DNA of 48,286 bases, from the NCBI GenBank assembly GCA_009889625.1, contig WTZU01000008.1, positions 1-48,286 on the forward strand, written 5' to 3'. The stretch is from Candidatus Hikarchaeia archaeon HikBin5. Lineage in GTDB: Archaea > Halobacteriota > Halobacteria > Halobacteriales > Hikarchaeaceae. Position 1 is the stretch's first letter; every line of letters starts with the position of its first letter. Positions 45,812-48,286 of this stretch are shown in pieces. The notes below the pieces were generated by a model. It was not told the origin of the DNA and ran no database searches. It saw only the letters and a program-made list of their open reading frames with translations. The position numbers were made by a program, and so were the translations under genes.

Positions 45812-47866
45812 TTAGTTTTCAGTCCTCATGAGCTCGATCTGAGTTACTACATCCAAGGGCGGATTATCGCCATTTAGTGCATTTATGAGTACATTCGACT
45901 CTTCTGGTGTGAAGAAATTTTGGCATATAATTTTACCGAGAGATGTTGCTTTTTGACCAGATACTAGACCAAATTTAATGAGGTTTTTCAATGCTAGTTC
46001 TGTTTGAATTTCTCCAATCATGGAAGAGTTGAGTTGAGCAAATTGGTCAGGTGCTACGACTATGTTGGCGAGGGTTTCACTCATTGCGGTTTGTTCGTCA
46101 TAGGAAATATATACATTGTCGACATCACTAGTAAGTAGTTCAAATGCCACTTGGTCTTCAGTTCGGCGCATGGTATTTGAATAAACCCTTCCTGGTTCCA
46201 CCAGTAGATAGATTAAGCCTTTGTCGTGATAGCTAGGACGTCCAGCTCTACCTTGCATTTGTTGGAATTCATGGGGAGTCAGCCAACTAGTTCCCATTGC
46301 TAGTGAATCAAAAATAACTTGGGATGCTGGGAAATCTACTCCAGCAGATAGAGCAGCAGTGGTGACTACTGCAGCTATTTTTCCTTCGCTGAATCTGTGT
46401 TCAATTGTTTTTCTTTGGTGGTGGTCCAAACCTGCATGGTAAGGCGCAGAAGAGGATGTTAATTTATTAGATATATCGTGACATCTTTGTCGAGAATTGG
46501 TGAATATTATTGTTTGTCCTAAGTATCCACTTGAAGATTTATTGATAAATTCACGTTCGATAAGTTCATTTATCAAGTGGGGTTTCTGACCAGGAAGAGA
46601 AAATGCTATATGGCGGTGGAGAGGAATTGTGCGAGTATTAAATTCAATGGTGGTTGCTTTCAAGGCAGACCCAAGGTGATTTGGGTTACCCACAGTTGCG
46701 GACAGATAGATCCATTGGGTTCCGCTGTTAAATTTGGTACAATGGTGTTTCAAACGTGTGATAAGTCCATCTATTCCATGCCCTCTAGATTGGTCCGCCA
46801 ACATATGGATTTCATCGATTACAATGGTTCCGACATTAGAGAGATCTTTATGAGTTCTAAGAGTGTGATCTATACCTTCATAGGTTCCTACGATGACATC
46901 TGCGTTGGGATTGAAAGGGTAAGAATCCCCTCGGACTCGGCTTGATCCCACTCTAAGAGAGATATTGAGCAGATGTCCATAATGTTTTTTGAAACTGTCG
47001 TATTTCTGATTGGCAAGTGCGACCAGGGGGACTAAAAATAAAAATTTCCCACCCCCATTGAGGGCCCTGTTGATGCCTGCTATTTCCCCAATTAAGGTTT
47101 TCCCAGTCCCGGTGGAACTAATTATCAATTGGTCGGATCCGGTCAATAGCCCATGCTGGAGAGAAAGATTTTGAATCGGTTGTAACTCCTCGAATCTCGC
47201 GAGAAGAGATTCCCTGAGATGTTCATGGATATCAAGATCCCCAATGTCAATAGAATCGATGGATGATATTTCAGATTGTATTTGATCAAAAGCTGTGAGG
47301 CCGGGGTCGAGTTCTCCAGAAAATGTTTTTTTTACATGATCTAGATCTTGTAAATCCATGAGTATTTTTTGAAGGTGGTTTTTAGTTGATTTAGACCAGT
47401 TTCCATTTGGAGAATAGTCAGATTCTAGCTCCGAAAGGGCGCATGATAAGCAGATTTCATGAAAATGAGAAACAATAACATTAGAAGCAACAAGTGGAGA
47501 AAAATGACCTTTTGAAGAGCAATGGTGACAGGTTCGAACGACCTCTGCCTGAAGTCCATAACTATGTAAAAGGGATTTAATCTCCGCCCTCATTTCCTTT
47601 TTTGTTTGACTCGATATTCTTATTTTTTTTGCTTTCCGTCCTATATCAATAAAATCCTCGGGTCGGCGTAGTTGTTCTTTGGTCCGTCCTTGTATTCTAA
47701 ATCTTAGAGGTCTTGGACCTGCCTTTGTTTCTTTGAGTTCTAGAACGGATTTGAATAGTACTTCCCCATTATGAAATCCAGATACCAGATAATCAGAATT
47801 TTTTGAATGCAAAAACAACGTGAAATCTTGGCGGCTAGGGGCCACAATAGTGGATAGGATGTCCAT
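45812..47866 (-). CDS. DEAD/DEAH-box (Ski2-like) helicase with N-terminal zinc-finger region
   Basis: SSTGTGKTLIGEIAG, VIDEIHMLAD, YLSATVGNP, QMQGRAGRP; upstream CHHC...CLSC cysteine pairs. Confidence 0.9.
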   Translation of the reverse strand: MDILSTIVAPSRQDFTLFLHSKNSDYLVSGFHNGEVLFKSVLELKETKAGPRPLRFRIQGRTKEQLRRPEDFIDIGRKAKKIRISSQTKKEMRAEIKSLLHSYGLQAEVVRTCHHCSSKGHFSPLVASNVIVSHFHEICLSCALSELESDYSPNGNWSKSTKNHLQKILMDLQDLDHVKKTFSGELDPGLTAFDQIQSEISSIDSIDIGDLDIHEHLRESLLARFEELQPIQNLSLQHGLLTGSDQLIISSTGTGKTLIGEIAGINRALNGGGKFLFLVPLVALANQKYDSFKKHYGHLLNISLRVGSSRVRGDSYPFNPNADVIVGTYEGIDHTLRTHKDLSNVGTIVIDEIHMLADQSRGHGIDGLITRLKHHCTKFNSGTQWIYLSATVGNPNHLGSALKATTIEFNTRTIPLHRHIAFSLPGQKPHLINELIEREFINKSSSGYLGQTIIFTNSRQRCHDISNKLTSSSAPYHAGLDHHQRKTIEHRFSEGKIAAVVTTAALSAGVDFPASQVIFDSLAMGTSWLTPHEFQQMQGRAGRPSYHDKGLIYLLVEPGRVYSNTMRRTEDQVAFELLTSDVDNVYISYDEQTAMSETLANIVVAPDQFAQLNSSMIGEIQTELALKNLIKFGLVSGQKATSLGKIICQNFFTPEESNVLINALNGDNPPLDVVTQIELMRTEN

Positions 47867-47981
47867 TTATATGAGAGTTTTCTATTTTCAAGATTGAGGC
47901 AGGTTTAATCGAGTGACAGCTTGGATCTGGGTATTCGGATTGATTCGTGTGAGTAATATTTTTTAAGTTGAGTATGGGGAG

Positions 47982-48023
47982 AAGCTTTATATTTTTTAGA
48001 TGCGTTACTTGAATCTATGCCCA
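47982..48023 (+). repeat. Direct repeat copy 1 (42 bp, exact): promoter plus start-codon module
   Basis: aagctttatattttttagatgcgttacttgaatctatgccca; identical to 48073..48114. Confidence 0.95.
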
Positions 48024-48072
48024 GCTATTTGGGTAGTGGCCACCACAATCTGGGTATGGCTAAAAAGGGAGT

Positions 48073-48114
48073 AAGCTTTATATTTTTTAGATGCGTTACT
48101 TGAATCTATGCCCA
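48073..48114 (+). repeat. Direct repeat copy 2 (42 bp, exact), includes ATG of the oxidoreductase
   Basis: Same 42-bp sequence, offset 91 bp; ATG at 48108. Confidence 0.95.
48075..48085 (+). promoter_or_regulatory. Candidate TATA box of the proximal promoter
   Basis: gctttatattt about 25-30 nt upstream of ATG 48108, as in leaderless archaeal genes. Confidence 0.5.
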
Positions 48115-48286
48115 AAATCGCAATTATAGGAGGCGGAATTGCAGGTGCCAGCATAGCATATCATCTATCGAAAAGGGGGAGTTTTTCAGTGGATGTTTAC
48201 GAACGGGGAGAATTACTTTCGGAAACCACTAGTAGATCCGCTGCGGTGTTTGGTCACTACGGAAATGCTACTGAAGTAAAAATGAA
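48108..48286 (+). CDS. FAD-dependent oxidoreductase (DAO-like), 3'-truncated by the window edge
   Basis: MPKIAIIGGGIAGASIAYHLSKRGSFSVDVYERGELLSETTSRSAAVFGHYG: Rossmann GxGxxG motif. Confidence 0.85.
   Translation, partial: MPKIAIIGGGIAGASIAYHLSKRGSFSVDVYERGELLSETTSRSAAVFGHYGNATEVKM

Follow-up and report, generated by a model that had tools for sequence, protein, structure and literature searches.

A 42-bp direct repeat carrying a TATA-like element and a start codon, conserved as a pair ahead of a FAD oxidoreductase gene in Candidatus Hikarchaeia

Upstream of a DAO-family FAD oxidoreductase gene of Candidatus Hikarchaeia archaeon HikBin5, a 42-nt sequence (AAGCTTTATATTTTTTAGATGCGTTACTTGAATCTATGCCCA) occurs twice as an exact direct repeat, and both copies are found at the same place in two further MAGs of the genus. 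We consider the chances about even that this is an old tandem of leaderless-type core promoters, identical to each other, overlapped by a regulator site and maintained by selection. How genes are controlled in uncultured marine relatives of the haloarchaea is poorly known, and a 41-bp unit whose two copies are kept letter for letter across species offers a compact, testable candidate regulatory element. It would also be a case of leaderless initiation offered twice ahead of one gene.

The window analyzed here, 48,286 nt in length, is the entire contig 35 of a 1.07-Mb MAG (G000). The repeat lies between a divergent gene pair, a helicase gene on the minus strand and the oxidoreductase gene on the plus strand. 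A sequence-only reading had described an exact 42-bp sequence occurring twice, 91 bp apart, and this is confirmed at 47982-48023 and 48073-48114 (91 bp from start to start, with 49 bp between the copies). In 1000 dinucleotide shuffles of 47867-48120, direct repeats reached at most 14 nt. In a survey of sampled parts of G000 and its relative G001, with coding and non-coding judged by eye, this was the only non-coding-looking pair common to both genomes among exact repeats of at least 22 bp within 400 bp. The features of the region are:

45812..47866, minus strand: DEAD/DEAH-box helicase gene, divergent (Pfam)
47982..48023, plus strand: copy 1 (distal), putative leaderless core promoter P1, ATG at 48017-48019 (exact repeat; 41/42 columns invariant in three genomes)
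47986..47997, plus strand: P1 TATA-like element and T-run TTTATATTTTTT (from the sequence; TTTATAT starts 31 nt before the ATG)
48017..48103, plus strand: frame from the distal ATG, 28 codons (from reading the sequence; stop TGA at 48101-48103)
48024..48072, plus strand: diverged spacer (three-genome alignment)
48030-48053, plus strand: better-conserved spacer patch TGGGTAGTNNCYACCANNANCTGG (three-genome alignment)
48073..48114, plus strand: copy 2 (proximal), putative leaderless core promoter P2 and oxidoreductase start (exact repeat; identical in G001 and G002)
48077..48088, plus strand: P2 TATA-like element and T-run TTTATATTTTTT (from the sequence; TATA-to-ATG distance as in P1)
48108..48286, plus strand: DAO-family FAD oxidoreductase gene, 5' end, cut by the contig end (PF01266; full length in G001 and G002)

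The proximal copy does stand ahead of a FAD oxidoreductase, as had been proposed: the second ATG (48108) opens the DAO frame, and the 59 aa present match PF01266 (E 3.7e-14). The full-length relatives in G001 and G002 are PF01266 proteins of 397 and 403 aa, whose nearest solved structures are sarcosine and glycine oxidases (1y56_B, E 7e-21); against NCBIfam, they score below the curated cut-offs. The next gene downstream in these relatives is a convergent pterin-4a-carbinolamine dehydratase. The distal copy, also in agreement with the earlier description, does not lead into the enzyme frame; its own 28-codon frame ends before the enzyme start. On the other side of the repeat, the helicase probably starts at GTG 47845 rather than ATG 47866, because this ATG is not conserved and the first start in both G001 and G002 is a GTG seven codons further in.

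Each copy carries a TATA-like element and an ATG at leaderless spacing, as previously noted: TTTATAT occupies positions -31 to -25 in both, in keeping with archaeal leaderless promoters, in which the TATA box lies ~25-31 nt before the start codon. In 584 regions upstream of G000 and G001 genes, TATA-like words become modestly more frequent at -33 to -28 and the A+T maximum falls at -27, a pattern suggesting that this genus uses leaderless starts. Leaderless transcripts make up 72% of the protein-coding transcripts of Haloferax volcanii, where 7.5% of expressed genes show two transcription start sites, in most cases a leaderless and a leadered one (PMC4983044). Ahead of the oxidoreductase gene stand two promoter-like units, co-oriented and both conserved, which is the layout of a tandem promoter. 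The earlier suggestion of a dual promoter or regulatory arrangement gains from the conservation of both copies across species, while promoter activity and leaderless starts are what we infer from these sequence features.

The comparison with related genomes that had been proposed as a check found the pair in both G001 (JAKURE010000008.1) and G002, with a copy spacing of 92 in each, compared to 91 in G000. The six copies in these three genomes are identical over 41 bp, from the TATA box to ATGCCC. Invariant alignment columns number 41/42 in copy 1, where the sole variable column is a gap at the 3' edge, and 41/41 in copy 2, versus 86/160 (54%) in the neighboring intergenic DNA. If copy 1 evolved like its flanks, conservation of this extent would have a probability of ~5e-12 by a simple independent-site estimate. 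The comparison covers only three genomes; the contig of a fourth (G003) is uninformative, starting inside the 3' end of the oxidoreductase gene. Among 90 G000-G001 gene pairs, the longest exact run within the last 60 nt upstream has a 95th percentile of 31 and a maximum of 44; a 42-bp exact run upstream of a gene is extreme for this genome pair. Because both copies occupy the same site in three species, the duplication predates these species. This overturns the idea of a recent duplication: the same pair sits at the same place in two species whose upstream intergenic DNA is only 62% identical to that of G000. The similarity that had been seen to extend upstream of the copies is real and short, consisting of GGAG(T)AAGC only, with one base absent from copy 1 of G000. 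Within the otherwise diverged spacer, the patch TGGGTAGTNNCYACCANNANCTGG (48030-48053) is kept in all three species and is possibly a second factor site.

Under the tandem promoter reading, each core promoter unit would run from BRE/TATA through the segment leading to the start and include the first six bases transcribed (ATGCCC). Transcription of the oxidoreductase mRNA would begin at the ATG of P2. P1, 91-92 bp upstream, would start a second transcript, which would either terminate early or run on as an mRNA extended at its 5' end and carrying a short upstream frame that is not conserved; alternatively, the distal copy may act as a second binding site. As the TATA-to-ATG segment is as invariant as the TATA box, we propose that a sequence-specific regulator probably recognizes this segment in both copies, either blocking or aiding RNA polymerase recruitment. 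We assume an overlapping site for this factor on the model of archaeal regulators that bind beside the TATA box, such as Pyrococcus furiosus LrpA, which sits directly downstream of the TATA box and prevents recruitment of RNA polymerase (PMC2995911). The likeness to LrpA lies in the conserved TATA-to-start segment, where a bound factor would block the polymerase; the difference is that we found no regulator, regulon, or significant palindrome here. A more speculative extension, which we think doubtful, is that the duplicated leaderless promoter and start codon work as a decoy or switch built into the locus. A single factor and the polymerase would then choose between a productive leaderless start and an upstream start with a poorly translated transcript, and promoter choice would set enzyme output.

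The arrangement is unusual but not unprecedented, as tandem promoters before a gene are already known. It resembles the H. volcanii genes with two start sites, in which two starts precede a single gene, often giving a leaderless and a leadered transcript; however, where that report treats such genes (PMC4983044), the two promoters are not described as copies of one sequence, whereas the pair here matches over all 42 bp, start codon included. It also resembles the rRNA operon of Halobacterium cutirubrum, a related lineage, in which several serial promoters feed one transcription unit, but there a stable RNA operon has as many as five promoters that differ in strength, as the same report presents it, while here a protein gene is preceded by two identical ones (PMC4983044). 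In the open-access literature, we found no description of an exactly duplicated leaderless promoter and start codon kept across species.

Several alternatives to the tandem promoter were weighed. The one that survives best, though still improbable in our judgment, is that P2 is the sole working promoter and copy 1 is an auxiliary site (operator or decoy) for the same factor, acting by cooperative binding or looping. Copy 1 is conserved to the base despite leading into no conserved frame, and archaeal Lrp-type regulators are known to use clusters of sites (PMC2995911). However, an operator alone need not preserve a TATA box, its spacing, and ATGCCC, and 91 or 92 bp is no whole number of helical turns. 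A palindromic (Lrp-type or dimeric) operator was considered and set aside: the dyad TAGAT-N11-ATCTA is reached by 24% of shuffles, and searches for the motif gave no further sites. Allowing up to three mismatches, the motif occurs in the family at this locus only and was not found in the 293 other genomes among 294 sampled from the class. The genome-wide controls drew on ~510 kb from G000 and ~755 kb from G001, and a search of this sampled DNA at 18 of 23 letters gave no further sites. Since the sampled genomes contain the motif nowhere else, a regulator gains no support from a regulon. The exact motif had 0 matches in viral_contigs, where the oxidoreductase was likewise not found, and the upstream regions of more distant DAO homologs held no comparable direct repeat.

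One point against the tandem promoter reading is that gene conversion between the copies could preserve the identity of copy 1 even if that copy did nothing itself. Copy 1 would then be a passive remnant of an old duplication, held identical by conversion from a functional copy 2, an explanation that we regard as somewhat less probable than an auxiliary site. It would account for the identity of the copies inside each genome, and the word just upstream of the copies gives a faint sign of concerted change, being TATGG twice in both G000 and G001 and TATAG twice in G002. On the other hand, this explanation requires repeated conversion over only ~42 bp in three lineages, with no repeat-mediated deletion in any of them.

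We think it very unlikely that P1 instead serves an independent gene for a small RNA or peptide, ~70 nt long and terminating at the copy 2 T-run. Hairpins are predicted in the spacers of G001 and G002, with TTTATATTTTTT downstream, but the folding z-scores against shuffles are only -0.2 to -0.8 and the predicted folds differ between species, so we rejected a structured RNA leader or small RNA in the spacer. Rfam gave no match in the element (two sub-threshold matches fall outside it). A conserved leader or upstream peptide behind copy 1 was rejected as well, since the frame behind the distal ATG is 28 codons long in G000 and 6 codons (MPPxGG) in G001 and G002.

The last alternative concerns the end of the contig, where the G000 sequence becomes unusually similar to G001. 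Mean identity between these two genomes is 78.5% in 177-bp windows, while the 177 bp past the second ATG are 96.6% identical, within the top 0.24%. At or near copy 2, the grouping of the three species also switches: the helicase gene places G001 closest to G002 (124 sites vs. 84 and 52), whereas the oxidoreductase gene has 28 sites shared by G000 and G001, compared to 1 and 3 for the other pairings. Both ends of the contig (1-77 and 48210-48286) match G001 over exactly 77 bp, and in all 13 of the 50 contig ends of the G000 MAG examined do so. Such ends are as expected of a k = 77 assembly graph that breaks at sequence common to co-occurring populations; published Hikarchaeia MAGs were assembled with metaSPAdes at k up to 77, which may not apply to the G000 MAG (PMC7599335). 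Either a recombination tract or a chimeric contig end begins at copy 2 of G000. With sequence this G001-like from copy 2 onward, the G000 version of copy 2 does not count as independent of G001. Two comparisons are free of this problem, copy 1 across the three genomes and copy 2 between G001 and G002, and the repeat is fully identical in both. A recent tandem duplication or assembly error in G000 alone is highly improbable: the contig does stop 179 bp after the second ATG, at a 77-mer that G001 also has, and its G001-like character from copy 2 on makes a join inside copy 2 possible, but G001 and G002 each have both copies with their own spacers, and the G000 spacer is unlike those of both relatives and runs into copy 2. 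With three assemblies showing the pair, each with a different spacer, the two-copy arrangement is not the assembly artifact that the sequence-only reading had asked to be checked. Elsewhere in these two genomes, an 81-bp stretch without a called gene (L132 7283-7363) is also identical in G000 and G001.
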